This document shows positions 10,354 to 25,364 of a stretch of DNA of 33,459 nucleotides, piece by piece (within the stretch, counting starts at the first letter, position 1; each line of letters starts with the position of its first letter). A program made the translations under genes and the position numbers. The DNA lies in IMG/VR virus record IMGVR_UViG_3300028030_000435, positions 1 through 33,459 of that record; one strand, written 5' to 3'. Under the pieces are notes generated by a model. That model searched no databases and was not told where the DNA came from. It saw nothing but the letters and a program-made list of their open reading frames with translations. The stretch is from a virus.

Positions 10354-10887
10354 TTAAAGCCCGTTTAAAGCTTTATCAAAGGTTTTTAAATTACCGGTAA
10401 TGCTCAGTTCTTGCAGTTCGGTTTCGTCGTATTCTTTCATATTGCTACGTCCGGTGTAAGATGCCGAATAGGTTTGCAGTAATACTTTGACTATTCCGGG
10501 TTCACCGATACTGCTTTCGCCGTTCCACACCAGCTTGCCGGTGTGTTCACTCTCGGTGTCTTTGACCAGCTCGTATATTTTTTCGGCAAAGTCCAAATAT
10601 TTAAGGGCGCGGTCAATATGCGGGGCGTGATTGTCACCGTGTTCCGGTTGTTCATATAATATATGTAAGGTCAAAGACAGCTGTCCGGGTTCTGTAAGCT
10701 GTGGCTTGTCAATGCTGAACTCTACCAGTACGGCGGGCAACACCAATCCTTCAAATTTTTCGGGGTTGTAATATTGTCCTTCGTATATATCTACGTATTT
10801 GACCGGTGGCAGTCCGGCAGCCGATAATAGTTGGTTTGTCGTATCGGCAGTCAATTTTTCGAGTAAGGTTTTGTATAGAGTTTTCAT
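10354..10887 (-). CDS. Tail-terminator-like protein (Mu gp37-like, tentative)
   Basis: A 177-residue alpha/beta protein, last gene of the leftward late operon. A helical N-terminus and strands with the pattern PAVLVEF, LTLHILYEQ, then KVLLQTYSASY resemble tail-terminator/gp37-type proteins that close the head-proximal end of the tail. Its position after the virion morphogenesis gene supports this. A 91-base spacer with a REP-like repeat separates it from the gene upstream. Confidence 0.5.
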   Translation of the reverse strand: MKTLYKTLLEKLTADTTNQLLSAAGLPPVKYVDIYEGQYYNPEKFEGLVLPAVLVEFSIDKPQLTEPGQLSLTLHILYEQPEHGDNHAPHIDRALKYLDFAEKIYELVKDTESEHTGKLVWNGESSIGEPGIVKVLLQTYSASYTGRSNMKEYDETELQELSITGNLKTFDKALNGL

Positions 10888-10919
10888 AAGTTAGTTGAAT
10901 ATTGATAATATTAAAAATC

Positions 10920-10980
10920 AGATTTCTCACTGCGTTCGAAATGACAGCGAACGCACTTTACCGCTTTCCACTTGGCACTT
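10920..10980 (-). repeat. REP-like repeat, copy 2, with GTGGAAAGCGG flank
   Basis: On the minus strand it reads GTCATTTCGAACGCAGTGAG followed by AAATCT (10945-10920), with ATTTC/GAAAT ends able to pair. Its upstream flank AAGTGGAAAGCGGTAAAGTG (10973-10954) is an exact 20-base match to 25835-25854 on the plus strand. The shared flank plus palindrome suggests that unit and flank move or recombine together. Confidence 0.6.
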
Positions 10981-11512
10981 AAAGCTTTAATGCTTCTTTA
11001 AGTTGTCGTTCCATCAGGCGTTCTATCCGTCGCATCAGTATGGCGGATTCGCCTAAAAATTTCCTTTGCGGTATGGTCGTATTCATTTGGCGTTGGTGCG
11101 CTTTGACATCAACGGTTTTGCCTTTGGCACGTCCGCGGGTAATGACGCGTTTGTGTGGTTTGACCTTTACGGTTTTGTTTATGGTACCGCCGTCATTATT
11201 GATTTGTGCATAAGGCACATCGGTGCCTATCACAATAAAGCGTCTTGTCCAACTGATTTTCCGGATAGAGCGTTTTAATCTGCCGGTGCGGAGCATCATT
11301 GAACCTTTTGCGCCTTTACGCTTACGTAAAGCTTTTAAAGTTGCTCTGCTGTTTTTTGGCCAAGGTTCACGACTGCGGTTTACCCAATTTTTCATTACAA
11401 AGCGTTCCTTACTGAAATTTACAGCCGTAACCGCCGCTTGTATCGGGAATTTGTCCATAGCGTTGGCAATCCGATCCACCTGTGCAAAAAATTGTTTTTT
11501 TCCTTTGATCAT
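10979..11512 (-). CDS. Phage virion morphogenesis protein (Mu gpG-like)
   Basis: A 177-residue basic protein of the phage virion morphogenesis / tail-completion family. Typical signs are the W-x-RSREPWPK motif (about 43-53), the LRTGRLKRSI segment (about 74-83), the IGTDVPYAQINNDGG turn (about 97-111), and a C-terminal PQRKFLGES segment followed by a helix. It assembles at the head-tail joint in Mu-like phages. The gene lies between the tape measure (11-base gap) and the tail-terminator-like gene. Confidence 0.85.
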   Translation of the reverse strand: MIKGKKQFFAQVDRIANAMDKFPIQAAVTAVNFSKERFVMKNWVNRSREPWPKNSRATLKALRKRKGAKGSMMLRTGRLKRSIRKISWTRRFIVIGTDVPYAQINNDGGTINKTVKVKPHKRVITRGRAKGKTVDVKAHQRQMNTTIPQRKFLGESAILMRRIERLMERQLKEALKL

Positions 11513-11523
11513 CGCTTTGTGTT

Positions 11524-13572
11524 TTACCCGGCTGACAGTTCTGCCCCCCTTACCACACGCATCAACATTTCGGTAAAGAAATTTTCCAGTTCTTTCGGGG
11601 TCATTTGGTTGATATGCTCGTTATTCACGTTGATGTCGCCTTTATTAAGTGCATCAATATTAATGGTAATACTGCGTGGGGCAGATGCTTTGCCGGTAAC
11701 TTTGGTCAGCTGCGTATCAGTATTGCCGCCGGTTGTATTATCATTGTTGCCCACGTCGGTTGTATTGCCGGAAATATCGGTTTGTAACAGCGGATTATCA
11801 CTGTCGGCATCTTGTCCGGTGGCTTTCTTTTTTTTCCAGTGCAACAGCCATTGGGCTTTATGGCGGTTTTGTTTCAGATCAATCAGGCGTTGCTTGCGTA
11901 CCTGTTGGTCGATATACCGCTGTGTCATTTGTTTACCTAAATCGTCTATAGCTTTTTGGTTTTCGGCCTTACTGCTGATACCTAAAACATTTTTGAGTTT
12001 GTAAAATCCTATTTTCAGTTTGTCTATCTTGTCGAGCATTCCATCAATCACATTATGCCAGGCAATACTTATCGTTGTGCCGATGATAGCCATAGTATCT
12101 TTAAAAAAAGCTTTTAGATTTTCCCATTGCTTACGCCAGCCATCGGTTTTTCGTACTAGATAGACAATAGCGGAAACCGCCAGCAATATCCAGCCTACAA
12201 TTGGAATATTAAGAATGGCCACTCTTATAGCAACCAATCCCGCGGTTACCATTCCAAGAGCCCCCGATAGTCCCATTGCTGCAACACTACTGACCAGCAT
12301 CACGCCACCTACTATCCCAATGGCAATGCCCACACTTTTAACCACTTCGGCTATTTGGTCAAAATGTTTCCAAATCCACGTTAAGACAATATCTATCCCC
12401 CGCAGTATCTTGTTAATGGTGGGTAAGGCGGTTTCGCCTATCCTTGCCAATATTACGTTTATTTTGTTGCGGATAACCCCACCTAATACGGTGGCATCGT
12501 TTTTGGCGTTGCGGAAAGCTTTATCAAGGTTATACTTGCTGCTGTCAAAGGCGTTCATTGTTTTTTCAAAGTCGGCGGCATTTGTTTTGAGTTTGATAAA
12601 CATATTACGCAATCCTTCCGGACCGCCAATCTTATTGATGATTTCATCAATCTGTTGCGAGTTCATTGTTTTAAACTTGTCTTTAACATCAGTCAGGATA
12701 CTACCCAAGTCTCGCATTTTGCCATTGGCATCATAGAGCTGTATGCCTATTTTTTTCAGTCCTTTAATGGTGCTTTCCTGTGTCAATCCCAAAAAGGCGG
12801 TTTTGGTCATTGTGGCACCGATACGGGCATCTTTGGTAATAGACGTAAAGACCGCAAAGAGTTTGTTGGCTGTGTCCACACTTTGTCCGGCACCGGCGGC
12901 CGCACCGGCATATTCGGTTTGTACGCGTGCCAGTTCTTTAAAGTTGACAATACCGGTCTGCACGGTTTTGGCATTGCTTTCAAGGTATTTGTCAATATCT
13001 TTTTCGGTCAAACCAAAGGCTTTTATTGCTTTGGTGGTCATATTGATACTGTCGGTCAGTTCGGCACCGGTGGCGGTGCTGTATTTGGCAATTTTGCGAA
13101 ATACCGTGTCGGCTTGTTTGCCATATAGCCCGGTAGCGGATTGCAGGTCGTAAAAGGCAATGGTGGTTTGTTGCAGGTTCTGCCCGGTTTCAAAAGCCGC
13201 CGCCCGGATATTCTTTTTGTAGGTGTCGAGGCTTTTTTGGGTTTTGTCAAGGTTTAGGTTTTGTATCTGCAAAAACTCGTGATTAAACAACTTTGCCTGG
13301 TTGATAGCCTTGCCATATAATACCGTTACCGACAGTAGTCCGGCGGTTAGCATCACATACGGGTTGCCCAAGAGCTTAAAGGCACGCCCAAGTAGCGGCA
13401 CTTCGGCACGCATATCATTAAAATTTTTCATAAAGCCCATTTTAAACTTGTTGAGCTTACCACCCATTTTGTCGGTAACCTTGTCGAGCTTGCGTTTGGC
13501 TTTCATCAGTTTGTTGTTAAACAGCTTGTTCTGCAATTCGAGAATTAAAGTCAGTTTGCTTTTTTTTACCAT
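11524..13572 (-). CDS. Tail tape measure protein
   Basis: A 682-residue protein that should set tail length and be ejected during infection. It has an N-terminal coiled coil (about 10-45), a TP901-type core (about 110-330), long hydrophobic segments at about 410-475 (GIVGGVMLV and IVGWILLAVSAIVYLV), and a charged C-terminus. No other tape measure is seen. Its place in the leftward head operon is odd: in Mu-like phages the gene normally follows the tail chaperone, where here (23786) it is missing. The leader contains the first of two antisense small-RNA promoters. Confidence 0.88.
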   Translation of the reverse strand: MVKKSKLTLILELQNKLFNNKLMKAKRKLDKVTDKMGGKLNKFKMGFMKNFNDMRAEVPLLGRAFKLLGNPYVMLTAGLLSVTVLYGKAINQAKLFNHEFLQIQNLNLDKTQKSLDTYKKNIRAAAFETGQNLQQTTIAFYDLQSATGLYGKQADTVFRKIAKYSTATGAELTDSINMTTKAIKAFGLTEKDIDKYLESNAKTVQTGIVNFKELARVQTEYAGAAAGAGQSVDTANKLFAVFTSITKDARIGATMTKTAFLGLTQESTIKGLKKIGIQLYDANGKMRDLGSILTDVKDKFKTMNSQQIDEIINKIGGPEGLRNMFIKLKTNAADFEKTMNAFDSSKYNLDKAFRNAKNDATVLGGVIRNKINVILARIGETALPTINKILRGIDIVLTWIWKHFDQIAEVVKSVGIAIGIVGGVMLVSSVAAMGLSGALGMVTAGLVAIRVAILNIPIVGWILLAVSAIVYLVRKTDGWRKQWENLKAFFKDTMAIIGTTISIAWHNVIDGMLDKIDKLKIGFYKLKNVLGISSKAENQKAIDDLGKQMTQRYIDQQVRKQRLIDLKQNRHKAQWLLHWKKKKATGQDADSDNPLLQTDISGNTTDVGNNDNTTGGNTDTQLTKVTGKASAPRSITINIDALNKGDINVNNEHINQMTPKELENFFTEMLMRVVRGAELSAG

Positions 13573-13577
13573 TTTGT

Positions 13578-13608
13578 TTGGTTTTTAACATTTTTTGTTT
13601 TATCTTTG
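13578..13608 (+). promoter_or_regulatory. Promoter of small RNA 1
   Basis: TTG (13578-13580), a 20-base spacer and TATCTTTG (13601-13608). Same form and spacing as the early and late promoters. It points rightward, against the tape measure gene whose start codon is at 13572. Confidence 0.75.
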
Positions 13609-13614
13609 TAGTCC

Positions 13615-13745
13615 AATGACTTAGTATTCCCTTCAATAGGAGGATCACTGCGCCGGACATATCAGCCGAATATTATATAGGGGACAATGCTAAGTATCCG
13701 GCATCAGAAAGGTTTGTTGTTTAGCAACAGACCTTTTCTTATATC
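13615..13745 (+). ncRNA. Structured small RNA 1 (tandem pair)
   Basis: Predicted RNA of about 130 nt between the promoter at 13578 and an intrinsic terminator. Stem P1 pairs ACTTAGTATTCCCTT (619-633 of 13 kb) with AGGGGACAATGCTAAGT (679-695), with an AC bulge. Inside its loop GCCGGA (652-657) is complementary to TCCGGC (697-702) just after P1, giving an H-type pseudoknot. The large loop exposes AATAGGAGGATCACT. The terminator is a hairpin (13708-13736) followed by TTTTCTT. Two U-G pairs exist only on the plus strand, which fixes the transcribed strand. No convincing ORF. It is about 90 percent identical by eye to small RNA 2, 201 bp away. Confidence 0.75.
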
Positions 13746-13778
13746 CGTTTCTTTTATTTTTTATTTTTATCATTTCAC

Positions 13779-13809
13779 TTGCTTTTTATCATTTTTCGTT
13801 TTATCTTTG
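13779..13809 (+). promoter_or_regulatory. Promoter of small RNA 2
   Basis: TTG (13779-13781), a 20-base spacer and TATCTTTG (13802-13809), an exact structural repeat of the small RNA 1 promoter even though the spacer sequences differ. Confidence 0.75.
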
Positions 13810-13815
13810 TATCGA

Positions 13816-13940
13816 ACTTGGTATTTCCTTTAATAGGAGGATCACTGTGCCGGACATATCAGCCGAATATTTGTAGGGAACAATGCCAAGTCTCCGGCAT
13901 CAGAAAGGTTTGTTGTTTAACAACAGACCTTTTCTTATAT
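13816..13940 (+). ncRNA. Structured small RNA 2 (tandem pair)
   Basis: Second copy. P1 pairs ACTTGGTATTTCCTT (816-830 of 13 kb) with AGGGAACAATGCCAAGT (875-891). Compared with copy 1, A-T has become G-C (820/887) and C-G has become T-A (826/879): two compensatory pair changes. The pseudoknot is TGCCGGA (848-854) with TCCGGCA (893-899). The AGGAGG-containing loop is unchanged. The terminator hairpin (13904-13932) lies inside the last codons of the leftward portal-MuF-toxin gene, so the 3' end of the RNA is antisense to that mRNA. A 9-codon GTG frame exists here but is not kept in copy 1. Confidence 0.75.
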
Positions 13941-16467
13941 CCGTTTCTTTTATTTTACCTTTATACCAAGTTTTGAGTTCCAGTCCGGTATTCATATTAA
14001 TGTGTGTATCTACGATAATCATTTCATCTTTAAAGAACTTTACATACCGGATTTGCCATTTGTTTTTTACACCTATATTGTGCATCCATACTTCATCCGG
14101 TTTTTTTAAGATACCCGGCAATAATGCAAATATTTGGTGTCTTAATTCATCTTCCTTTACATAATGTTTTTCAGGGCTTGTGTGATAGTCAAACACATCT
14201 TTAAACAGCTTTATATGCCTGTTTAAATAGTCTTTAAATCCCATAAAAGCTTTACCGTTTACTTTGTCTGTTTTTTTAAACAACTCTTTGACGTTGTCTT
14301 TGGTAATGGTTTTGTCGAGTTTAAGCGGTTGTTTGGTTTTGGCTATGTCTTTAAAGTCTTTTAGCCCGTAAGCTTTATAATCCAATTGGTTCAACTCGGA
14401 TAGCAATTTGCCGTCTTTGGTATAGAATTGTTTCCGGGTAAAGACTTGTTTGAGATCGCCGCGGTTAAAGTCAAAGCCTTTAAAAAAGCTTTCGGGCATT
14501 TTGCCAACCCAGTCTTTGCCTTTGCTGACTTTACCTTTGACATCGCCCACATATTGCAACATTTCGCAACGGCAACCGTAACCGTTTGGTGGCCACAACC
14601 GCATGGCTTCTTTGTCGTTGAGGTTAAAAATCTTGCCGTCGAGTAGCTGGTGCTGTTCACGTACGCGGCTATCCCCTGCGGTTTGGTATTGCACGTAGGG
14701 GATTTGTTCCCTTTCGTTCATAAACCTTGCATAAGCGGCGGCATTTTGTCCGGTAGCCACGGCGAGGTTGTATTCGGTGCGAAGCCAAGTTTCGTTAAAG
14801 TTTTTGGTTACTTTCAGTGCTTCGGCTTTAAAGTCGTCAAAGCTGCGGATTTGATGTTTGTCTTTGTCTATCAGCAGTTGCGTCATACTTGCTAACCGGG
14901 CTTCTGTTTTGCTCGCCGCAAACTCAAACAGGTTGTACTCCATCATCTGCAACATCAGATGATCGGGGGCATTCCATTGGGCATCTATCAATTTTTTGTC
15001 CCAAAGCTCGTGCAATCCTTTGCGTAAAAACAAAGTTTCTTCAGTTGTCAGCCGTGCGGCATCGGCACCGGTTTTGCGTTTGTGCCAAATACTGCTTGCC
15101 AATTGTTCTACCAGCTTTTTAAGCCGTTTGGCAATATAAAATTCATTGTCGGCGGCATCAAAGCGGTTGTGATAAGCACAGCAGGTTTCTGCCGGATAAT
15201 CCGGCAAGTTTAGCCCTTCAATTTGCAGGCTCTGCGGGCTTGTTACCGGTGTTTTGGTCAAATTTTTTTTTTTACCGGTTATTGGCACAAAGAAGGTGTC
15301 GGACAGCCATTGCTCATCTACATCGTATTCTTTGATGATGTCACGGATGATGTTCCAATATTTATCCAGTTTCAAATTGTGTGCCTTAGCAAATCCAAAA
15401 GTGTCGTTTTCGCCTATAAAGGTATAGCCGTGTCTTCGCAATAAGGGAAGTAGCTTGTCATTGATAAGAAATGTAATATTGCGTTTGTCGGCAATGGCAA
15501 TTTTCTCATCCAAATTACGCTCGTGAACTTCACTTTGGCTGCGGCTGCTACCGTCGTTGGTTATCATCGTACCGCCGACTATCGCCACACTAATCTCTTC
15601 TTTGTTGTACTTGATAAAATGTTCATATGACTGATAGGCATCGGTGCGGTCTGCTTCCCTAAATTCCAAAGTGGTGCCTTGCGGAAATACACCGGTACTG
15701 GCTTCGCCCATCTGTTGCAACATATAATTGATTTTATCAATGGTGTCGTCATCGTAGGCGGTGGTGGTTGCCGTTACCATAGGAATACCAAACTTTTCAG
15801 TAAAGTCGGCCCAACTTTGTCCGACGTTTCGTTTCCAAATCAAGTTAGGGACAATATCGTTAAGAATACCCAGCTCTTCGGGTTCGCCTATTTCAATCAA
15901 CCAATCGGCAAAATACGGGTCGTCGTAATGGATGGCTTCATCTTTGGTCAAATCCGGCAAAACGATTTTTTGTTCCGGAACGACATTTTGTCGCGGTATG
16001 GTATTGTGAATTACGCTGTCCGGAAAAAAACTTTCAAATTCTTGCAAGGTGTATCCGTAAAAGATACTGTCCAACGCCACTTCCAGAAATTTATAAAACC
16101 AAGATTTGTTTAAAAATTTAGTCGCTTCTTCGTTGACATTGCCTTTATCATTGGTAATTTGAAACCCGGTATTGAGTGTGGTATATTTACGCAGTCGCAT
16201 CACGGACTTTAAATGCCCGTCCGTGCCAAGGTCGTAATAAATGTCTTGTAACAGATTACGACGCGGCTTGTCCGGCATACCTGCCATAAGCAACGCCTTA
16301 CGCCATTTTTGAATATCTTTACGACTGCGATCTTTAAATCGGTTGACAATTTTGTCAATAATCAGCTTTTCGGTTTTGGACAAACGGCGTCCTGTTCCGG
16401 TGGCTTTTTGCCGGTTGTTAAAATTAGCCGTTTTCAGCCGTTTTATTTCAAGGTTAAATATTTTCAT
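13900..16467 (-). CDS. Portal-MuF fusion with C-terminal nuclease-toxin-like domain
   Basis: An 855-residue fusion. Residues about 1-400 are a DUF935 portal (Mu gp29-like; SSRSQSEVHERN at 307-318), the DNA channel of the capsid. Residues about 440-645 are a MuF head-morphogenesis domain (Mu gp30-like; AGDSRVREQHQLLDGKIF and PPNGYGCRC at 597-634). After a linker, residues about 735-855 resemble the small RNase-like domains (PBECR type) found at the ends of MuF proteins, with PDEVW (790-794), a KTWYKG strand (832-837) and RKGLLL (845-850) near the end. Separate genes encode portal and F in Mu. The 3' end overlaps the terminator of small RNA 2. Confidence 0.85.
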   Translation of the reverse strand: MKIFNLEIKRLKTANFNNRQKATGTGRRLSKTEKLIIDKIVNRFKDRSRKDIQKWRKALLMAGMPDKPRRNLLQDIYYDLGTDGHLKSVMRLRKYTTLNTGFQITNDKGNVNEEATKFLNKSWFYKFLEVALDSIFYGYTLQEFESFFPDSVIHNTIPRQNVVPEQKIVLPDLTKDEAIHYDDPYFADWLIEIGEPEELGILNDIVPNLIWKRNVGQSWADFTEKFGIPMVTATTTAYDDDTIDKINYMLQQMGEASTGVFPQGTTLEFREADRTDAYQSYEHFIKYNKEEISVAIVGGTMITNDGSSRSQSEVHERNLDEKIAIADKRNITFLINDKLLPLLRRHGYTFIGENDTFGFAKAHNLKLDKYWNIIRDIIKEYDVDEQWLSDTFFVPITGKKKNLTKTPVTSPQSLQIEGLNLPDYPAETCCAYHNRFDAADNEFYIAKRLKKLVEQLASSIWHKRKTGADAARLTTEETLFLRKGLHELWDKKLIDAQWNAPDHLMLQMMEYNLFEFAASKTEARLASMTQLLIDKDKHQIRSFDDFKAEALKVTKNFNETWLRTEYNLAVATGQNAAAYARFMNEREQIPYVQYQTAGDSRVREQHQLLDGKIFNLNDKEAMRLWPPNGYGCRCEMLQYVGDVKGKVSKGKDWVGKMPESFFKGFDFNRGDLKQVFTRKQFYTKDGKLLSELNQLDYKAYGLKDFKDIAKTKQPLKLDKTITKDNVKELFKKTDKVNGKAFMGFKDYLNRHIKLFKDVFDYHTSPEKHYVKEDELRHQIFALLPGILKKPDEVWMHNIGVKNKWQIRYVKFFKDEMIIVDTHINMNTGLELKTWYKGKIKETDIRKGLLLNNKPF

Positions 16468-16489
16468 TGTCTCAAAGTTTATCTTTTAA

Positions 16490-16520
16490 TTTGAACGAGT
16501 TTAAACACTGTTTGAACGAG
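16490..16520. repeat. Short direct repeat in the portal leader
   Basis: TTTGAACGAG occurs at 16490-16499 and 16511-16520, each followed by TTTA or GTTTA, with a period of 21 bp (two helical turns). It lies in the 66-base gap between the DUF1320 stop and the portal start. It could be a paired protein site or a simple duplication. Confidence 0.4.
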
Positions 16521-16533
16521 GTTTAGCTACAAT

Positions 16534-16971
16534 TTACCAGCGATTATCTTCCGGTGGATGCTTTGAGCTGATTTTTATCCCCAATTTAGGTTGACCGTCC
16601 GTATCAATTCGCCGGGGCAAATCGGCAAGAATATTTCCTTTTGCCACATCTTTCAGCCACTCAATCGCATCTTGATACCGGTTGCTGCGATGTTCGGGTA
16701 TTTTGTCCGGGCTGATAGAGCTGTAAAGATGATATAGTGCCATATCGATAAGCGTCATAATAATATGCTGGTTGCGGTCTGCCCCGGTGGCGTAGAAAAT
16801 CTGCTCGACATCATATTTGCCAAACAGGTAATTTTTGATTTGTGCCACTGCCATACTTTCGGCTTGCAGTATTTTAGCATTATTGACCGTGCCGTCGTTT
16901 TCGGACAACAGCGATTTGATTTCCGCTCTTATCAATACATCGTAATCGGTATCTTGTAAAAATCTTGCCAT
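16534..16971 (-). CDS. DUF1320 head-tail connector-like protein (Mu gp36-like)
   Basis: A 145-residue helical protein of the DUF1320 type. Signs are the N-terminal FLQDTDYDVLIRAEI, a central helix with AESMAVAQIKNYLFGKYD (about 36-54), a hydrophobic helix IIMTLIDMALYHLYSSISP (about 69-87), and RYQDAIEWLKDVAKG (about 97-111). These proteins line the head-tail joint. It sits two bases after the large terminase stop, in the expected order before the portal. Confidence 0.85.
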   Translation of the reverse strand: MARFLQDTDYDVLIRAEIKSLLSENDGTVNNAKILQAESMAVAQIKNYLFGKYDVEQIFYATGADRNQHIIMTLIDMALYHLYSSISPDKIPEHRSNRYQDAIEWLKDVAKGNILADLPRRIDTDGQPKLGIKISSKHPPEDNRW

Positions 16972-16973
16972 AG

Positions 16974-18551
16974 TTAAAATCGGTTTTTGCTTCGGTTAAT
17001 TACATCTCTACGGCGGCTCAGTCGCACATCAAACTTGCCCACATAAGTCGCTTGGTTAAGTTTGGCGATACCGCTTTGCAGTGCATCGGGCCCGTCATCG
17101 TTGGCACCCGATCCTTTTTCAAATGCCAACAACTGATCTATCAAGGTTTGGGTGTCTTCGCCGTCTTTGATATTCAAATCAAAATAAACGTTGCCCCTTT
17201 CAAAATACCCGACCATACTTTCAATCCGGTCAAACTTATTACCTTTGGGGTCTTTGTCGGCAACTACCGGAATGTAATACCCGCGATTGTCCCCTTCCAA
17301 ATCAAAGTCGTTGACAAATTCGTCTTGGGCAAACAGCCCTTCAATCCAATACCGAACCGGATATTTTTTCAGGTTCAAGTCTTCATATACATTATATAAC
17401 CAATAGGCAACATCCGCCCGGCTTGATTGGCGGACAAAGGCTTTAAGGATATGAAATTCTCTTCCGGCTTTACCTATCAACAGCATTGCCTTGTAGTCGC
17501 CTTTGTCTTTGTAGCTCAAATCGCCGTAAAATACCAGTGCGTCGTATTGGCGGAGTTGCAAACGCTTTTTATAGCGGATATGTTCCGGTTTAAAAATGGC
17601 ACCGTCTTGAATATGTGTGTGCATATATTCCCGCATAAACGAGCGGTATGGAAAGTCTTCAAATTTTTCTTTCCAATATTTTGCACTCGTTTTTTCGGGC
17701 CAGTTCGGTTCAAAGCTTGTCAAGTCTTTCACGGCTTTAACCGTCAAGACGTAATATTTAGAGTTTTTACCTCGTTCACGGGCTTTTTTCGCATTATGCC
17801 TAAAGGTAACTTTCAGTTGGTTGATAATGGTATTTTTATGAAAGTTGTTATTGGCAACCACAAATCTTGCACGCGTAGCACCTTCGTCAAAGGTTCCCTT
17901 CAAGTCTTCCCATACCCAATCGTGAGCTTCCCGGGAGAGCCGGTCGTTTTTAACGCGTTTTTTGCTATCGACATCATCCACGACGATATAATCCGGGCGT
18001 TCGGCACCTTCACGGGCGCCCCGTGGGTTTTGCCCAATACCAATAGCTAAAAATTTGGCATCGTCGGAAGTGGTAAAATCCCCATCCGACCAGTCGCCGT
18101 ATTTAAAGCGTTTGCCGTAATCGTTAATCAGGCGTTGGTTTGTTGTGAGTTGTGCTTGTATATCGGAAATCAGTCGTTTGGCTTTTGGCTCGGTTTCACC
18201 AACGAGTAGCATAAAATGTAATTCACCGGTAAAATATAAGTATAAAGGTATGCCCATATCCAAATGAACGGATTTGGCACCGGAACGGTAAATTTCGGCT
18301 AACAGGTTGACCACCGGATTTTTTATCAGAATGTTTGCCATTCGCTTATGAAACCATGCCGATTTGCTTTTGGCATACATGGGGAAGTAATACTCAAACC
18401 AAGTGATATAATCACGTTCGAGTTGTTTTTTACGCTTTAATTTTTCCTGTGGGCTTTCACTAATATCAATGTAGGTCGATTGCTCAATGCGCCGACAATG
18501 CTTTTCGTAATCACGTATGATTTTTTCATATTTGCGATTGATTTCACTCAT
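16974..18551 (-). CDS. Terminase large subunit (Mu gp28-like)
   Basis: The DNA-packaging motor, 525 residues. The ATPase part has a deviant Walker A (YRSGAKS, Lys93), an adenine-side segment with YFTGELHFMLLVGETE (about 106-121), and Walker B DYIVVDDVDS (Asp192-Asp193). The RNase H-like nuclease part (from about 335) begins with FYGDLSYKDKGDY and ends near DDGPDALQSGIAKL. It overlaps the small-subunit gene by 4 bases. Mu-like enzymes cut by headful, so host DNA is normally carried at the ends. Confidence 0.9.
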   Translation of the reverse strand: MSEINRKYEKIIRDYEKHCRRIEQSTYIDISESPQEKLKRKKQLERDYITWFEYYFPMYAKSKSAWFHKRMANILIKNPVVNLLAEIYRSGAKSVHLDMGIPLYLYFTGELHFMLLVGETEPKAKRLISDIQAQLTTNQRLINDYGKRFKYGDWSDGDFTTSDDAKFLAIGIGQNPRGAREGAERPDYIVVDDVDSKKRVKNDRLSREAHDWVWEDLKGTFDEGATRARFVVANNNFHKNTIINQLKVTFRHNAKKARERGKNSKYYVLTVKAVKDLTSFEPNWPEKTSAKYWKEKFEDFPYRSFMREYMHTHIQDGAIFKPEHIRYKKRLQLRQYDALVFYGDLSYKDKGDYKAMLLIGKAGREFHILKAFVRQSSRADVAYWLYNVYEDLNLKKYPVRYWIEGLFAQDEFVNDFDLEGDNRGYYIPVVADKDPKGNKFDRIESMVGYFERGNVYFDLNIKDGEDTQTLIDQLLAFEKGSGANDDGPDALQSGIAKLNQATYVGKFDVRLSRRRDVINRSKNRF

Positions 18552-18985
18552 TCGACCGAAGCTTTATACAGGATAAATTGTTTGTGCCATTCGAGGAACT
18601 TAACCGCCATTTCGGGGTCTTGCGATGCCATCCAGTTGTCAAATTCTTTAAAAACCGACAGAACCACTTGCACGGATATTTTTCCGGACACGGTTTCCAA
18701 TACCTTACTGATTTTTGCCAGTGCGTCGGCATCAATTGTTGCTTTTTCTCCTTTGGCAATTTTCTCGAGCTGCTCTACCAACAGTTCTTTAATTTTATGC
18801 GGTGCCGACAGCACTTCCGCCCGCCGCAGATCCCAAGACTTTTCGCCATTACGTCCCTTACGCCAGCGGGAAACGGTAACTTCCGACACGTCCAGCTTGT
18901 AGGCAATGGCTTTGGCGGTCATACCTTCTTCGATAAACATGCGTTCGGCAAGTGCCCGTTTTTTTTGATTGGTCAGTCCTTTCAT
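18548..18985 (-). CDS. Terminase small subunit-like protein (DUF1804-like)
   Basis: A 145-residue protein, first gene of the leftward late operon. An N-terminal helix-turn-helix (about 8-45: RALAERMFIEEGMTAKAIAY followed by LDVSEVTVSRWRKG) is followed by a helical oligomerisation region (about 60-140). This fits a DUF1804-type small terminase that recognises phage DNA and recruits the large subunit, with which its end overlaps. The start is about 10 bases downstream of the predicted transcription start. Confidence 0.82.
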   Translation of the reverse strand: MKGLTNQKKRALAERMFIEEGMTAKAIAYKLDVSEVTVSRWRKGRNGEKSWDLRRAEVLSAPHKIKELLVEQLEKIAKGEKATIDADALAKISKVLETVSGKISVQVVLSVFKEFDNWMASQDPEMAVKFLEWHKQFILYKASVE

Positions 18986-19001: not shown

Positions 19002-19009
19002 CAAAGGTA
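19002..19009 (-). promoter_or_regulatory. Leftward late promoter -7 box
   Basis: On the minus strand TACCTTTG, identical to the rightward late -7 box. At the position for a -33 TTG the strand reads AAG, so this promoter should need an activator. Transcription would start near 18995, about 10 bases before the small terminase gene. Confidence 0.65.
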
Positions 19010-19038
19010 AATTGATAAGCGGTTTTTTCCTTAAATGT

Positions 19039-19074
19039 TTGCAAGCCTTGCAATGATTGTTGCAAGCCTTGCAA
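19039..19074. promoter_or_regulatory. Twin 15-bp palindromes, probable late-activator sites
   Basis: TTGCAAGCCTTGCAA occurs at 19039-19053 and again at 19060-19074, identical copies 21 bp apart (two helical turns). Each is a palindrome of TTGCAAG and CTTGCAA around one base. Each site is exactly 29 bp from the -7 box on its side, so the region is symmetric around 19056.5. Relative to the predicted starts the centres are near -51 and -72 in both directions, typical activator positions. Confidence 0.75.
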
Positions 19075-19080
19075 CATTCT

Positions 19081-19111
19081 TTGTTTTAAAAACAAGCCCG
19101 ATTTACCTTTG
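19081..19111 (+). promoter_or_regulatory. Rightward late promoter
   Basis: TTG (19081-19083), a 20-base spacer and TACCTTTG (19104-19111). Transcription would start near 19118, leaving about 12 bases before the protease start at 19130. The twin palindromes lie just upstream of the -33 element. Confidence 0.75.
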
Positions 19112-19129: not shown

Positions 19130-20248
19130 ATGATTTTAAAAACCCGTGATAATAACTTATATATGTATGGCACCATTTGGAGTGGTGATGAACGATCTTT
19201 TGATGAACTTTTTTCCGCATTGGAAAAGAAGTATGATAATATCATCATTCACTTACATACTAATGGTGGCGATGTGTTTGCGGGTAACTTTATGATACAG
19301 CGTATTGAGAATTCAAAGGCAACTATACAAATAGATGTCGTTGGTACGGCATTCAGTATGGGGGCTATTATGCTCACCGGTGCCGATAAACGCCGTATGG
19401 TAGCCAACGGTTTTGCCATGATACACCCACCCAAAGGAGGCATATATGGTACTGCTAAAGATATGTTATCCGGAGCCAAACTGCTTCAAAATATGGAGGC
19501 AAATTTTATTGAGGCATTGGGACGTATTACCAATTTATCCGACAAAAAACTCAAAGAGCTGATGACCGGTGATCATTATTACGATGCAAAAGAGGCTCTT
19601 AAGATCGGCTTAATTGACGAAATCATTCCGGCAAAAACCAAAACCAAGTTGAAAGCATTAGGCGATTTACGTCCTGATGATGTCTTTCATAGTTTTGCGG
19701 CTATTCTTACCGAACCGAAAAAAGCAAAAGATAAAAATCAGAAATTTATGAAACAAGCATTAATTGAAGCTTTGGGGTTAAACAGTGTTAATCCCGAATC
19801 GTCTGACACGGCAGTTATTCAAGCCGTGAAAGCACATTATGACAACAAGCTGGCAAGCATTGAGGCGAAGCTCAAGGAAGAGCAGGAGGCCAAGAAAAAG
19901 CTTGAAGAAACTATCAAGGCACAGCAAAAGGCCAAGATAGATGCCCTTTTAGCCCCGCTTAAAGGTAAAATCACCAAAGAGCAGGAACAAACTTACCGCG
20001 ATATTGCCGAGAAATCGGGCATCGCTGCACTAGAGACCGTCTTGGAAAATATGTCGGGGCGTAAATCTATCAAAGACTTTATTACCAAAGACGTTATCGG
20101 CGGTAAAGCAGCCGGGCGAGAAAATTGGGATTGGGACAAATGGCAGGCAGAAGACCCACGCGGATTGGAAAAACTGGCACAAACCGACCCGGACAGTTTT
20201 CTTGCACTGGGAAAAACAAAATTTGGAGAAAACTTTAAAATCAACTAA
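19130..20248 (+). CDS. ClpP-like prohead protease fused to scaffold
   Basis: A 372-residue protein, functionally like Mu gpI plus gpZ. Residues about 1-175 are a ClpP-type serine protease: oxyanion-loop NGG (45-47), nucleophile in GTAFSMGA (Ser76), His99 in MIHPP, and an acidic candidate in GDHYYDA. It would cleave scaffold and perhaps capsid precursor inside the prohead. From about 205 the chain is a long charged coiled coil ending in a short globular tail, typical of scaffold. ATG at 19130 preceded by GGAAGGA is preferred over the TTG at 19109, which lies within the -7 promoter box. Confidence 0.85.
   Translation: MILKTRDNNLYMYGTIWSGDERSFDELFSALEKKYDNIIIHLHTNGGDVFAGNFMIQRIENSKATIQIDVVGTAFSMGAIMLTGADKRRMVANGFAMIHPPKGGIYGTAKDMLSGAKLLQNMEANFIEALGRITNLSDKKLKELMTGDHYYDAKEALKIGLIDEIIPAKTKTKLKALGDLRPDDVFHSFAAILTEPKKAKDKNQKFMKQALIEALGLNSVNPESSDTAVIQAVKAHYDNKLASIEAKLKEEQEAKKKLEETIKAQQKAKIDALLAPLKGKITKEQEQTYRDIAEKSGIAALETVLENMSGRKSIKDFITKDVIGGKAAGRENWDWDKWQAEDPRGLEKLAQTDPDSFLALGKTKFGENFKIN
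19748..20248 (+). CDS. Possible separate scaffold from an internal start
   Basis: An in-frame ATG at 19748 (MKQALIEALGLNS) lies exactly at the join between protease and scaffold regions and would give a 166-residue scaffold alone, as Mu makes gpZ from a start within gene I. No strong ribosome site is visible, which is normal in this host group, so this is inference by analogy. Confidence 0.35.
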   Translation: MKQALIEALGLNSVNPESSDTAVIQAVKAHYDNKLASIEAKLKEEQEAKKKLEETIKAQQKAKIDALLAPLKGKITKEQEQTYRDIAEKSGIAALETVLENMSGRKSIKDFITKDVIGGKAAGRENWDWDKWQAEDPRGLEKLAQTDPDSFLALGKTKFGENFKIN

Positions 20249-20263
20249 AAAAGAAAAAACATT

Positions 20264-21325
20264 ATGAAGAGATTTGTAGCATTATTTATGGCTTTGTTTG
20301 CCGTAGTATTTGTATCGAGTGCCGTTGCACAGGTAACCGGCTTTGACTTTAAAACCACGACTGCCGTTATCGCCGGCTTATCAATGTTGGCACAGGCGCC
20401 GGCCGGCGTTGCCTTTGCGGGCTTAAACCAAGAGATTTGGACGGATATTCTGGTTAAGAATTTAAAAGCGGGTGAGGATGCATCGTTTTTAAATGAAATA
20501 CCGGACAGGTCGGATTTGGTTATTGCATCACGCGGTGATAACGATATTATCCACTTGGTTGATGTAGGCGTTGACCCGGACGTATTGATCAATAATACCA
20601 CCTACCCGATACCAATTCAACAACAAGTGGATACTGATATACCCATTCAGTTGGATAAATTTCAAACCAAAGCTACTGCGGTAACGGATGATGAAATTCA
20701 ATATATCGCTTACGATAAGATTAGCTTGGTGCAAGAAAAGCATGTTAAAGCTATTAAAAAGGCAAAATTCGGAAAATCGGCTCATGCTTTGGCACCCCAA
20801 GCAGACAGCACTTTGACCCCGGTTATTTCCACTACCGGTGCTAATGACGGTACCGGCCGTAAGAAAATGACCTTTAAAGATTTGACGGCATTGAAACGCA
20901 AGTTTGACGATGCCGGTATCGATGAAGAAGGTCGTATTTTGGTTTTATCCACCGATCACTACAACGACTTGTTGGAGGATGCCGATACTAAAAACTTGTT
21001 TAAAGGACAGTTTTTAGACGAGAAAAAAGGTAAGCTGAATTTGTTCCTTGCCGGGTTCAAAATCTATTGGTATTTGCGTAACCCGTATTTTAATGCGGCG
21101 AGCAAAACCAAATTGAGTTACGGTGCCATTCCGGGTGCCGGAGACTACCGCGCTACTTTTGCCTTTGTGGCAGATGACATGTTTAGAGCTACCGGTCGTA
21201 CCAAAAACTACACCAAAGAGCCGGAGCCGGAGTTCCAACGTTGGTTGTACAACGTACGTCACAACTTTATCACTTTGCCCAAAAAGCAAAGATCAATCGG
21301 TGCTATCATCAGTGCCACTGTCTAA
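20264..21325 (+). CDS. Major capsid protein (Mu gpT-like) with signal-peptide-like N-terminus
   Basis: A 353-residue protein in the place and size range of the Mu-like major capsid protein. From about residue 52 it has features of the family: QEIWTDILVKNLKAGEDASFLNEI, a long helical spine region (about 145-170), KMTFKDLTALKRKFDDAGI, and a C-terminal YNVRHNFI strand. The first 24 residues look exactly like a Sec signal peptide (KR, a hydrophobic core, SSAVAQ), followed by a second hydrophobic stretch (about 33-52). This part may be a scaffold-like extension removed by the protease encoded just upstream. Confidence 0.8.
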   Translation: MKRFVALFMALFAVVFVSSAVAQVTGFDFKTTTAVIAGLSMLAQAPAGVAFAGLNQEIWTDILVKNLKAGEDASFLNEIPDRSDLVIASRGDNDIIHLVDVGVDPDVLINNTTYPIPIQQQVDTDIPIQLDKFQTKATAVTDDEIQYIAYDKISLVQEKHVKAIKKAKFGKSAHALAPQADSTLTPVISTTGANDGTGRKKMTFKDLTALKRKFDDAGIDEEGRILVLSTDHYNDLLEDADTKNLFKGQFLDEKKGKLNLFLAGFKIYWYLRNPYFNAASKTKLSYGAIPGAGDYRATFAFVADDMFRATGRTKNYTKEPEPEFQRWLYNVRHNFITLPKKQRSIGAIISATV

Positions 21326-21343
21326 CCTTAAAACTTAAAGAAC

Positions 21344-21595
21344 GTGAATATCACTAAAAAAGTCAAAGAAAAAGCTAAAAAGCTGTTTGGTCAAAATGAC
21401 TACAAAGAGCTTTATGTGAATAAGAAGGGCGAATTTTTCACCAATGAAAATTTAGCCAAGTTGTCTGTTAAAGACCCGAAAAAAGAGCTTGCCGTATTAA
21501 AACGGGAAGATTATGTGGAACCCGCCAAGCCAACCGGTGAAGGTGGCGACGGAACCGGAACGGGTGAAGGAAAAGAAACCGGAACGCAAAAATAA
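21344..21595 (+). CDS. Small protein between capsid and sheath
   Basis: An 83-residue protein starting with GTG at 21344. A basic helical N-terminus, a short alpha/beta centre (KELYVNKKGEFFTNENLAKL), then a flexible Gly/Thr/Glu-rich tail from about 60. It occupies the spot where head-decoration or head-tail connector genes are found. The family is not recognised. Confidence 0.6.
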   Translation: MNITKKVKEKAKKLFGQNDYKELYVNKKGEFFTNENLAKLSVKDPKKELAVLKREDYVEPAKPTGEGGDGTGTGEGKETGTQK

Positions 21596-21601
21596 GACCG
21601 G

Positions 21602-22846
21602 ATGGCACTACAAGGCGTAGAAATAACCAGAGGCAGCATCGGCGCTAACACGTTAAGTGTTGGCGACGGTGTTTCCGCTATCGTCATAGGGGCGCCTGCC
21701 GCTACGGGATTGGCGCAAGGTGTGGTCAAACATTTATTTGGTATCAAAGATGCCGAAAGTGTTGGCATTACCGCCGATTTTGACCAAACCAACAACGTCA
21801 ACGCTTACCGGCATATCAGCGAATTTTACCGCAAAGCCGGTGAAGGCTCGCACCTGTATGTGATGTTGGTTGACCCAACCAAAACGATGGTGGAAATTTT
21901 GGAAGATACCGGTAGTAATTATGCTAAAAAACTATTATCGGAAGCCGGAGGCGATGTGCGACAGTTGGCTGTTGCCGTGAACCCTACCGGTGCCACGACC
22001 CACTTAAACGGCTTGCCGGCTGATGTGTATAATGCCATAGCCAAGGCACAGGGCTTATACGACTGGGCAGACAGCCACTATATGCCGTTACAGATTTTAT
22101 TGGAAGGTTACGATTATGCCGGCGATGCATCAACCGTTGCCGATTTGCGTGACTTACCCAATTTGCAGGCACACAAAGTCAGTGTGATTATCGGACAGGA
22201 CTGGGCGTATGCAGAAAGTAAAACCGGTAATGCTCAAAAATATGCCGATGTCGGTACCGCACTTGGCGTGTTGTCAAATGCGGCTATCAATCAAAATATC
22301 GGTGATGTGGAAAGCTTTAATATCACGGATGCCACCAAAAACATTTGGATGGTACCGGGATTGAGTTCGCATCAAAAAAACAGCGATGTGATGGAACAGC
22401 TGCAAACATTGGATACCAAGGGCTACATATTCGGAGTTGAATATATCGGTATATCTGGTGTTCGTTTTAACGACGACCATACCTGCACACCGATTATTAT
22501 GGATGCGGAACATAATGTCAACGAATATTGTATTGCCTTTGGCCGTACCCACGACAAAGCTCGCAGACAACTGCGCACGGCTTTGTTGCCCAAAGTCAAA
22601 ACGGTGCAGCCGACCGATAAGAAAACCGGCAAGATACCGGCAGGGGTTATCAAGTATTTTGAAAACTTGGCCGGTGGTGTTTTTGAGGATATGGAAAAAG
22701 CCCGTGAAATTTCCTTCGGAAAAGCCACGGTTAACCCCGACAGCGATTTGGTCGTTGCCCGGGAATTGGAATTGTCGTTTGAAATTATCCCTTACGGCAA
22801 TGTAGGTATCATTAGAGGAACGTCTAATCTTAAAACGCAAGTATAA
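21602..22846 (+). CDS. Contractile tail sheath protein (DUF2586-type)
   Basis: A 414-residue sheath subunit, counterpart of Mu gpL. The N-terminal region (MALQGVEITRGSIGANTLS), a Gly-rich VSVIIGQDWAYAES strand (about 198-211), and a C-terminal FEIIPYGNVGIIRGT handshake-arm-like end match the DUF2586 sheath family. It polymerises around the tube and contracts on infection. It overlaps the tube gene by one base (TAATG). Its presence makes the virion a myovirus. Confidence 0.87.
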   Translation: MALQGVEITRGSIGANTLSVGDGVSAIVIGAPAATGLAQGVVKHLFGIKDAESVGITADFDQTNNVNAYRHISEFYRKAGEGSHLYVMLVDPTKTMVEILEDTGSNYAKKLLSEAGGDVRQLAVAVNPTGATTHLNGLPADVYNAIAKAQGLYDWADSHYMPLQILLEGYDYAGDASTVADLRDLPNLQAHKVSVIIGQDWAYAESKTGNAQKYADVGTALGVLSNAAINQNIGDVESFNITDATKNIWMVPGLSSHQKNSDVMEQLQTLDTKGYIFGVEYIGISGVRFNDDHTCTPIIMDAEHNVNEYCIAFGRTHDKARRQLRTALLPKVKTVQPTDKKTGKIPAGVIKYFENLAGGVFEDMEKAREISFGKATVNPDSDLVVARELELSFEIIPYGNVGIIRGTSNLKTQV

Positions 22847-23262
22847 TGGCAAGAGCAATCAGAAACGGTAAGGCGTATGACAGCGCCGACGTACAAACAT
22901 TAATCAACGGTATTCCGTGGGAAGTAGAAGAAATCAGTTACGGCATGACACAAGAGCATCAGTTGAATTATCAATTAGGGAGTGAAAAGCCGTCATCATG
23001 GAGTCAAGGTAAGGAAGAGTATAGTTGCAGTGTAACCGTTCCTATGCATGCCATTGCAGCGTTGGAGCGTGTCGCCCCGGGGGGCAGGTTGACCAAAATA
23101 CGTCCGTTTTATATTAATGTCAGTTTTGTCAATGACTATAACGACATTGTAAACGATACGATTTTGGCAAAGTTCAAAGACCAAGGACGTGAAGTAACCG
23201 GTGATATGGGTTTGAAAAAACAGTATGAGCTGTTTGTATTGGATATGAATTTTAATAACTAA
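22846..23262 (+). CDS. Tail tube protein
   Basis: A 138-residue beta-rich protein directly after the sheath, the normal position of the tube gene (Mu gpM). It has a strand-rich pattern (SCSVTVPMHAIAALE, then RPFYINVSFVNDYNDIVNDTI, then KKQYELFVLDMNF) like tube proteins with the Hcp-type barrel. It starts by a one-base overlap with the sheath stop. The chaperone gene follows after 6 bases. Confidence 0.8.
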   Translation: MARAIRNGKAYDSADVQTLINGIPWEVEEISYGMTQEHQLNYQLGSEKPSSWSQGKEEYSCSVTVPMHAIAALERVAPGGRLTKIRPFYINVSFVNDYNDIVNDTILAKFKDQGREVTGDMGLKKQYELFVLDMNFNN

Positions 23263-23268
23263 TCATGT

Positions 23269-23595
23269 ATGAAACTTAAAAAGTTAGATCAAAAAACCAA
23301 AGACGTACTCAAAAAAGAGTACGGAGAAGACAAGTTGGTCATTCTCGAAGTGCCTACAAACGAAACGGAAACCGAATATATCGAAGTGGCGGCACGTGTG
23401 CCTTCACGTCAGGTTTTCAGCCAGTATTTGAAGTGGGCAAATGACAACCCGAAAAAAGCACAGGAGATTTTGTTGCGAGGTTGTGTCTTAACTGACCGTG
23501 AAGTTATTGAAGCCGATGACTTTATGTTTAACACGACGATTAGTTTGTTGGCGGAACTTATTCCTATCGGTCAGGGTCGTATAAAAAAGTTTTAG
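23269..23595 (+). CDS. Tail assembly chaperone, short form
   Basis: A 108-residue acidic helical protein encoded between tube and hub genes, the position of the G-like tail assembly chaperone that coats the tape measure during assembly. It has a beta-like N-terminal part (KLVILEVPTNETETEYIEVAARVP) and a helical C-terminal part with NPKKAQEILLRGCVL. It ends just after a slippery A AAA AAG; ribosomes that do not slip make this form. Confidence 0.75.
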   Translation: MKLKKLDQKTKDVLKKEYGEDKLVILEVPTNETETEYIEVAARVPSRQVFSQYLKWANDNPKKAQEILLRGCVLTDREVIEADDFMFNTTISLLAELIPIGQGRIKKF

Positions 23596-23786
23596 AGGTC
23601 GGCTTGCACTACGCCGATGATAAAGATTGGGTGTTTAAACGAGATGCTTTAATTAGCCACGTTTTACATATTCCGTTTCCGGAACAGCTTCCTGACGATG
23701 TATGGGCACTCAAATGGGCGCAAGTAGTGTGGCTGGCCGAGAAAGGCATACTCGGTGTAGAGCTTAAAAATCAAATAAATGTCTGA
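23269..23786 (+). CDS. Tail assembly chaperone, -1 frameshifted long form
   Basis: Slippage at 23583-23589 joins the first 107 residues to a further 65 read in the -1 frame (from 23589 to the TGA at 23784-23786), giving about 172 residues. The added part (VLEVGLHYADDKDWVFKRDA and onward) has no usable ATG of its own, has normal phage codon use, and reaches 8 bases into the next gene. This is the lambda G/GT arrangement, in which the extension links the tape measure to the tube subunit. Confidence 0.8.
23583..23617 (+). promoter_or_regulatory. Programmed -1 ribosomal frameshift site
   Basis: A AAA AAG (23583-23589) is in the correct zero-frame phase and is the most efficient type of bacterial -1 slippery heptamer. 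The zero-frame stop TAG follows after one codon. Nine bases after the heptamer, TCGGC (23599-23603) can pair with GCCGA (23613-23617), with a G-U extension, as a stimulatory hairpin. Confidence 0.82.
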
Positions 23787-24381
23787 CGGTATAATACTTA
23801 ATTTAGGGAAAAGATATGCAGCGGCGTTCGGTTTGTTGGCAATAGGTGGCAAACCGGACAAAGCCCATATCGATAAGGATTACAAGCTGACATTTTTTGA
23901 CGAAAGCGATGAAACAACGGCAGATATAAGTCTGACGTTTGACGGTAAAGAAGTTGCCTTCGGACAAATACCATTTGTTAGTTCCGGTGATGCCGGACCA
24001 AAAAAACTTTTTGCACCGCCCCCGCTGATCACCTTTAACCGGCAAAAGCACCATATTGAAACACCTATCAACGGCAGTGATGCCGTAGTAGTGGAACGTT
24101 GGGGAATCAAGTCTTGGGATATTAGAGTGAACGGGCTGTTGATTGATGTAGAAAACCGGCAATACCCGGCAGAATATATCCGCAACTTAAACCGGCTGTT
24201 CAGTTATAAAGGTGTGGTTGATGTCAGCGGAGCGCAGTTTGAGGATAAGGACATTGACAGTATCTATTTTAAAGGTATCAGCATACAGCCCATTCCGGGA
24301 TATGCCGATACGGTTAAGTTTAGTTTGAAAGCCCGTAGTATCAATGCGGTTGGTTTTACCCTATTAAATCCCAACGGATGA
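23779..24381 (+). CDS. Baseplate/hub-associated tail protein (DUF6046-like)
   Basis: A 200-residue beta-rich protein. Signs are an acidic N-terminal half, a central VVERWGIKSWDIRVNGLLID stretch (about 104-123), then YPAEYIRNLNRLFSYKG (about 128-144) and a C-terminal VKFSLKARSIN strand. This resembles the DUF6046-type proteins of Bacteroidota Mu-like phages, in the slot of Mu gpN. Many such proteins carry a LysM or hub-binding fold. It overlaps the hub gene by 4 bases (ATGA). The tape measure expected just upstream is not here. Confidence 0.6.
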   Translation: MSDGIILNLGKRYAAAFGLLAIGGKPDKAHIDKDYKLTFFDESDETTADISLTFDGKEVAFGQIPFVSSGDAGPKKLFAPPPLITFNRQKHHIETPINGSDAVVVERWGIKSWDIRVNGLLIDVENRQYPAEYIRNLNRLFSYKGVVDVSGAQFEDKDIDSIYFKGISIQPIPGYADTVKFSLKARSINAVGFTLLNPNG

Positions 24382-25364
24382 ATTTTCTATACTATAATAT
24401 GCGTTGTGAGATTCAGCTCGGTAAGGTTAAAACCAATGTAGTCAATTCTATACAAATAGATCAGTCTATCAAAAAGCTTACCGATACGGCGGTGATACAA
24501 TTACCCCGCAATTTGGTTGTAAAGCGTGACGGACAGCAAGACAGTTTGGAAGGTAAAAAAGTTCGTGATTTTATAAAAGTAGGTGACCGGGTTCAGATTA
24601 AACTGGGATATGATGATGAACTTAAATCCGAGTTTACCGGTTACATTACCAAAATAGGTGCCGATGCGCCACTGGTAATTCATTGCGAGGATGAAATGTG
24701 GCAGTTGAAACAAAACAAAATTACCAAAAGCTATAAGCAGGTAAAACTGCTGACACTGTTGCAGGACATTGCCCCGGGATACGAATACGAGGTCATTGAC
24801 AATATTAGTTTAGGAAAGTTTAGAATTGACAAGGCATCTGCTTATGAGGTGTTGAGTCAATTGCAAAAAAAATACGGTTTGTTTAGCCGGTTTACGGGCA
24901 AAGTATTGCATGTTGGATTTCCGGTTAGCATAAAGCCGTCTGTAAAGCATCCGATTAATCTGAACCGCAATGTTAGGGCACAACGCAGCGATTTGAAATT
25001 TGTCAGTAAAGACGATTTGAAGGTGATGATAAAAGCTATCAGCTTAAACAATGACGGCAGTCGCTTATCGGCAGATTTCGGTGATAAAAACGGTGCTGTA
25101 AGAACATTGCATTTTACAGGTAAAACTTTACAGGAGCTAAAAGAACTTGCCGAAAAGAACTATAAAAGTTTGTCGTTTGACGGTTTTCAGGGTAAACTGC
25201 CCACTTGGGGTTTGCCCCGTATTAAGGCGGGTGATGCCGTCAGTATAACCGACCCTGCCTATAATGGAGAGCATGACGGCACTTATTTGAATGAAGCCGT
25301 TCAAATCAAGTTTAACGGCTCAGAAGGTTTTAAAAGAGAAAATACTTTAAGTATGAAATTATGA
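24378..25364 (+). CDS. Baseplate hub protein (Mu gpP/gp44-like)
   Basis: A 328-residue protein of the D/P-type hub family that caps the tail tube and carries the spike. Features include an N-terminal barrel (FIKVGDRVQIKLGYDDEL followed by FTGYIT, about 68-92), a helical middle (SAYEVLSQLQKKYGLFSRF, about 154-172), and a C-terminal LPRIKAGDAVSITDP strand (about 278-292). It overlaps neighbours at both ends by ATGA, so expression is coupled with the endolysin encoded next. Confidence 0.78.
   Translation: MNFLYYNMRCEIQLGKVKTNVVNSIQIDQSIKKLTDTAVIQLPRNLVVKRDGQQDSLEGKKVRDFIKVGDRVQIKLGYDDELKSEFTGYITKIGADAPLVIHCEDEMWQLKQNKITKSYKQVKLLTLLQDIAPGYEYEVIDNISLGKFRIDKASAYEVLSQLQKKYGLFSRFTGKVLHVGFPVSIKPSVKHPINLNRNVRAQRSDLKFVSKDDLKVMIKAISLNNDGSRLSADFGDKNGAVRTLHFTGKTLQELKELAEKNYKSLSFDGFQGKLPTWGLPRIKAGDAVSITDPAYNGEHDGTYLNEAVQIKFNGSEGFKRENTLSMKL

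Follow-up and report, generated by a model that had tools for sequence, protein, structure and literature searches.

The divergent late gene junction

The window (the whole stretch of DNA analysed here, 33,459 nt) is an IMG/VR record, and its 33 kb belong to a Mu-like Bacteroidota phage with a contractile tail. It is placed among the Mu-like transposable phages by transposition proteins resembling MuA and MuB, by GemA and by Mu-like morphogenesis genes; it also encodes a DUF1804 small terminase (TerS), TerL, portal, tape measure, ClpP-type protease, capsid, sheath and baseplate hub proteins. Its late genes lie in two divergent operons. The leftward operon (minus strand) begins at 16974-18985 with TerS (18548-18985) and TerL (16974-18551), and continues at 10354-16971 with head-tail adaptor, portal/minor head, tape measure and tail completion genes and the gene of a 177-aa protein; the rightward operon (plus strand) begins with protease, major capsid, sheath and baseplate hub genes at 19133-25364 and goes on rightward. 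The plus strand at 13560-13930, opposed to the leftward operon, carries two tandem repeats of ~197-201 bp (blocks 84-93% identical) that each have a TTTG-N20-TATCTTTG promoter and end in a strong hairpin; these are probably duplicated small-RNA genes. The first repeat folds with z=-3.45, reaches the gathering score of no Rfam family, and has a core with no exact copy in the other loci considered below.

Two palindromes and two promoter boxes are set with mirror symmetry between the divergent TerS and protease genes. The -7 box of the leftward (terminase) late promoter, TACCTTTG, occupies 19002-19009 on the minus strand (reading CAAAGGTA on the plus strand) and keeps the same offset to its operator in relatives; the identical box of the rightward (protease/capsid) late promoter lies at 19104-19111 on the plus strand. 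The left operator (19037-19055, with a 15-bp core, TTGCAAGCCTTGCAA, at 19039-19053) is proximal to the leftward promoter, its centre 37 bp upstream of the box, and the right operator (19058-19076, the same core at 19060-19074) is proximal to the rightward promoter. The initial annotation had described outward-facing identical boxes centred on 19056.5 and twin TTGCAAGCCTTGCAA palindromes sharing that centre, each 29 bp from its own box, and this description is correct to the base; the 21 bp that it placed between the palindromes is the centre-to-centre distance, the gap between them being 6 bp. Its further observation, that only the rightward promoter has a -33 TTG, also holds: the TTG is at 19081-19083 (plus strand), 20 bp upstream of TACC, whereas the mirrored leftward position reads AAG. 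There is no third copy of TTGCAAGCCTTGCAA in the window at up to two mismatches. A late RNA hairpin is rejected as the function of the palindromes because they lie upstream of both inferred start sites.

The two -7 boxes fit TAnnTTTG, the Bacteroidota sigma-A consensus, which mapping in Flavobacterium psychrophilum puts at -12 to -5 (PMC9723704), and nAnnTTTG is present in nearly all fitted relatives. This position of the consensus places the centre of the promoter-proximal operator near -49, abutting the -33 region.

A quantised geometry shared by related phages

Searches with TerL yielded 10, then 80 and 61 loci, most of them with TerS and a divergent protease-like gene upstream; these provide 137 usable TerS/protease junctions, 102 of which are distinct after deduplication. 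The distance between outward-facing TTTG boxes, measured without any use of the palindromes, is quantised: it is 82, 103 or 124 bp in 45, 21 and 14 of the 102 loci, respectively, against a background with a mean of 2.9 and a standard deviation of 2.1. The three distances correspond to junctions with one, two and three palindromic operators spaced exactly 21 bp apart, the window being of the two-operator form. A secondary peak outside this series, a CAAA-to-TTTG distance of 75 bp, is found at 14 of the 102 junctions.

The place of the palindromes relative to the boxes is equally constrained. Palindromes called without bias lie at an offset of 41 from TTTG/CAAA in 24 of 102 loci on the right, 27 on the left and 13 on both sides (other offsets give 0-9 and 0-1), with an echo at 62, that is, at 41+21. 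When a template is fitted and a pass is defined as a score above the 99th percentile of shuffles, an offset of 37 passes in 58 of 102 loci and neighbouring offsets in no more than 10. An operator period of 21 is seen in 21 multi-operator loci, and every other period from 17 to 25 in at most two. Conversely, if operator positions are derived solely from the boxes, the predicted centre is the one place where dyad symmetry reaches a peak (5.03 of 9 pairs, as against 1.6-3.1). The proximal operator thus sits 37 bp upstream of nAnnTTTG, and quantised spacing together with this fixed offset, beyond what chance would produce, marks the junction as a conserved, predicted bidirectional late promoter.

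Individual relatives make the same point. L003 and L014 have exactly the mirror spacing of the window; so, judged by eye, do the diverged L006 and L007, whose palindromes have other sequences (CCGCAAGGGTTGCGG in L006, AGTCCAG...TTGGACT in L007); in all four, two palindromes are again 21 bp apart, with the boxes by eye 47.5 bp from the centre. L008-L010 and L012 have a single palindrome at the exact centre, and boxes 21 bp closer. The commonest relatives have one palindrome common to both promoters, so twin palindromes are not essential. The consensus promoter arm consists of an operator, a T-tract at -33, ~20 bp, nAnnTTTGC and then an A-rich segment. The -33 TTG is kept in 19 of 55 protease-ward arms as against 4 of 55 terminase-ward arms (Fisher P=0.0008). 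The geometry does not hold in roughly 20-25% of loci. Searching the phages for operator copies elsewhere finds 8, and 3 for a reversed control, which is to say essentially none.

Several subgroups depart from the common pattern in ways of their own. Six junctions (L081, L083, L086, L126, L134 and L137) have TAAAGnnnCTTTA-like operators in 21-bp steps, with a promoter box that is apparently 1-2 bp further off (L081 and L086, counted by eye). The junctions of L004, L015, L020, L022 and L050 have long palindromes, such as TTTTGCAACTTTGTTGCAAAA in L015, that overlap the terminase-ward TTTG box and are perhaps a second layer of control. In L079 (8825-9507), and also in L098, L099, L120, L122, L076 and L078, 360-690 bp of extra DNA separate the switch from TerS; a signal-peptide-like gene can be made out by eye within such DNA in L014, and it looks as if cargo genes had been inserted under the leftward late promoter.

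The strong gyrase site of Mu lies at the centre of its genome. The element described here is likewise near the middle of the genome, as would suit a site for gyrase, packaging or replication whose role is purely structural and whose closeness to promoters is accidental; but the element keeps an exact register of 37 and 21 bp with the two promoter boxes and covaries with a DNA-binding protein (below), which leaves that account with almost no probability.

A candidate activator encoded next to gemA

The initial annotation had proposed three small early proteins (genes 2075, 7668 and 7222) as possible ligands of the palindromes, and comparison of the loci singles out 7668. The gene (7668-7901, plus strand) encodes a 77-aa protein that, of all small early proteins of the window, has been kept in the most relatives, with matches in 49 loci; the GemA-like 7222 follows with 44. 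After iterated search the family has 76 entries (loci and window), and it is also found in 21 of 32 further records. Seven of the 11 records lacking a match are viral fragments of 10-25 kb (G003, G008, G011, G014, G015, G017, G026); the other four (G009, G027, G028, G031) are whole-genome records, for which length does not explain the absence. Gene 2075 has no match among the loci, which mostly stop short of that region. Genes 9463, 9785, 8042 and 10057 are rejected as activators, each being present in one relative's locus only.

AlphaFold2 predicts four helices for the 7668 protein, with a helix-turn-helix (HTH) recognition helix at residues 45-52 (pLDDT 86) in which R46 and D49 are the putative specificity residues. 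No Pfam, PHROG or NCBIfam model matches it significantly, so that a protein family without an entry in these collections can now be named. Foldseek identifies no significant solved relative, and a weak match to the MuA I-beta HTH; the sequence profile of 7668-7901 finds the C-terminal DNA-binding domain of RpoN (2o8k) among PDB sequences at a non-significant E=0.037. The gene directly follows the GemA-like gene (7222-7668, plus strand; 3 of 12 members of that family match PF06252 at E<=0.01), which is the gemA-mor order of Mu, and it starts within 150 bp after the GemA-like gene in 34 of 45 scored loci. L014, which was found by its twin-palindrome DNA pattern alone, proves to come from the contig of L079, whose family member has the identical helix, SKRTFDEYLGIP. 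L081, L126 and L137, with their TAAAGnnnCTTTA-like operators, have a divergent, SYVTFNNMLNEP-like family member. Conservation, predicted fold and the covariation described next combine to make the 7668-7901 protein the likely late activator.

Covariation of the predicted recognition helix with the operator

Among 53 non-redundant activator-operator pairs, the top two residue-base pairs are residue 49 with half-site position +7 and residue 46 with +5, and both residues are in the predicted recognition helix. At residue 49, Y goes with C at +7 in 15 of 15 cases, M with C in 6 of 6, D with A or G in 10 of 10 and H with A in 4 of 4; at residue 46, R goes with C at +5 in 29 of 31 cases and S mostly with G (5 of 8). 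The mutual information of 49/+7, 1.37 bits, exceeds that of every other pair when activator, TerS and TerL are scanned, and that of 46/+5, 0.95 bits, is among the largest. Stratified permutation gives P=0.0002 for both pairs at 35% and 45% clustering; at 55%, the finest, P=0.001 for 49/+7 and 0.06 for 46/+5. Phylogenetically independent contrasts on the TerL tree are concordant 7:0 and 6:0, and both pairs recur when operators are placed by the boxes only (R with C 28/29, Y with C 11/11). In the 21 loci with detected GemA, neither 49/+7 nor 46/+5 is among the top pairs. There is a real phylogenetic background: in the stratified permutation TerL columns reach z=6.8, residue 49 scoring 7.6 and residue 46 scoring 5.3. 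The case for recognition accordingly draws on three things at once, namely how large the mutual information is, that both residues fall in the predicted helix, and the contrasts. As comparative evidence these are strong, if short of proof of binding: they indicate that the 7668 family recognises the operator, presumably by direct contact, and they yield a simple, testable rule relating residue to base.

The same comparison bears on TerS, which carries an HTH and is encoded next to the palindromes, and for which they might be operators in autoregulation or a packaging site. Distances between TerS proteins do correlate with distances between operators (r=0.38), but the partial correlation between activator and operator, given TerS, is still 0.34; the TerS covariation maxima are lower, with mutual information of at most 0.71 among the top pairs, and its recognition-helix region (SEQT.S.WRK) is by eye near-constant while the operators differ widely. 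In L079, moreover, 682 bp between the TerS and protease starts part TerS from the junction, yet twin operators and box spacing persist. Recognition by TerS is accordingly highly improbable as the reason for the palindromes, and recognition by the 7668 family is preferred.

A probable activator-dependent bidirectional late promoter

The element is, very probably, an activator-dependent bidirectional late promoter driven by the HTH protein of 7668-7901. The protein would be made from the early/middle operon; a dimer of it would bind each 19-bp dyad (general form TTGT.CAA...TTG.ACAA) and, centred ~37 bp upstream of nAnnTTTG (about -49), would recruit or activate host sigma-A RNA polymerase, so that both late operons are switched on by one signal. 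The two-fold symmetry of such a dimer would let one operator serve promoters on either side, which accounts for the one-operator junctions. Additional operators come in 21-bp, that is, two-turn, steps: each would shift one promoter by exactly two turns, and each promoter thereby keeps its own operator on the same face of the helix.

Covariation does not distinguish an activator from a repressor. An arrangement of tandem dyads beside divergent promoters is typical of repressor operators, and the junction fits that pattern; a CI-like protein (1318-2013) or a host regulator might bind the palindromes and silence the late genes in the lysogen. The sites are, however, upstream of both promoters, clear of the -33 and -7 elements and at one fixed offset; the repressor/early region has no copy of the palindrome; bases of the operator covary with an early protein of the phage; and the terminase-ward promoter is without a -33 TTG at standard spacing in 51 of 55 loci, as suits a promoter that depends on activation. 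Silencing by a repressor is thus very unlikely, and it is on operator position and the degenerate -33 element that activation is preferred.

The initial annotation had envisaged one phage activator, bound cooperatively to symmetric sites on one face of the helix and turning on both promoters to give balanced head and tail synthesis. The core of this proposal gains support from the two-turn steps, the fixed 37-bp offset and the way operators covary with a phage protein, and cooperative binding is plausible. Balanced head and tail synthesis finds no such support: head and tail genes are found in both operons, and the conserved asymmetry of the -33 TTG suggests promoters of unequal rather than balanced strength. 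What emerges together, from sequence comparison, is a cis-element with its rules of construction (one to three operators, 21-bp steps, one operator for two directions) and its probable activator; the geometry of this symmetric switch is reproduced, base pair for base pair, in dozens of relatives, in which a small viral protein probably turns on both late blocks. A large and poorly annotated group of phages thereby acquires a candidate late activator and its operators.

Relation to Mu, fF4 and hankyphage

The resemblance to the Mor and C activators of Mu (PF08765) is one of place and role. The 7668 protein, like them, is a small phage HTH protein, encoded directly after gemA. Mor binds a 16-bp dyad centred at -43.5 (PMC4390567), and at both the Mor-dependent Pm and the C-dependent late promoters, as here, the dyad is just upstream of the -35/-33 region of a promoter without a good -35. 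The 7668 family has no significant similarity to PF08765 (hhalign probability 4%), and we call it Mor-like in place and role only. The arrangement of the targets differs: C acts at several separate promoters, lys, I, P and mom (PMC4461284), while a single symmetric site here serves two divergent operons.

Among the closest known systems are also the Flavobacterium phage fF4 (MN850656, Winoviridae), an isolated phage with the gene order of the window, and the fF4-like prophages. fF4 has a member of the 7668 family at 7740-7979 (QHJ72910, annotated 'hypothetical protein'), and its junction has one operator and the two boxes. An HHpred match to mor has been reported for ORF14 of fF4 (PMC7761591); by gene order ORF14 should correspond to QHJ72910, given that ORF15 is a T5-endolysin-like protein, which QHJ72911 resembles. 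Searching the same paper by term brought up no analysis of promoters or regulators at the TerS/protease junction. The Bacteroides hankyphage p00 is also Mu-like and has the same divergent TerS/protease layout; no quantised operator geometry was recognised there, and no 7668-family match in the stretch searched. A literature search, together with term searches of the fF4 and hankyphage papers, brought up no account of how Mu-like Bacteroidota phages control their late genes.

A tail resembling a clamp-binding motif in the proposed activator family

In phage T4, late factors carry a sliding clamp-binding motif and the clamp of the replisome activates late transcription (PMC7892883, PMC2988020). 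Most members of the 7668 family have a comparable tail: a loose Q..[LMFI][FN] lies in the last 22 residues of 62 of 87 distinct proteins (about 70%), and the stricter QxxLF is found in 44 of 87, falling within the last 10 residues in 39 of 87 as against 8 of 6602 control ORFs. The bacterial clamp-binding consensus is QLxLF (PMC4549789). At two host loci retrieved with a DinB-domain query the longest frames end in QLKFDF and QLKFSF, like the family tail QLTFNF (this extraction was crude, and the other four such loci have no readable DinB end). The window's own protein ends in NKNNTR, without a tail of the QxxLF type, so the clamp lead concerns the family and not the phage of the window.

It is a speculative thought that the tail of most relatives ties activation to host sliding clamps left behind by replication. 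Mu late genes are expressed after phage DNA replication has started (PMC4461284). The general form of the idea, that Mu-type late transcription is licensed by replication through the host clamp, held by an operator-bound activator with a tail such as QLTLF, QLSLF or QLTFNF, is a tentative one to which we give somewhat less than even credence; such an activator would work best on freshly replicated, clamp-loaded DNA. The parallel with gp33, gp55 and the T4 clamp gp45 has its limit, in that gp55 is a sigma-like promoter factor, whereas the present system has a sequence-specific operator and sigma-A boxes. A link between replication and late transcription, if it exists, would bear on Mu itself, and the same tail in Mor and C would, if true, make it a rule across Mu-like phages of two phyla; a literature search that covered mainly open-access papers found no report connecting Mor or C with the clamp. 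Mu Mor, Mu C and related PF08765 activators (L179:1282-1671, L179:2464-2886 and L180-L185) end in QxxLF or QxxLL, which resembles the clamp motif.
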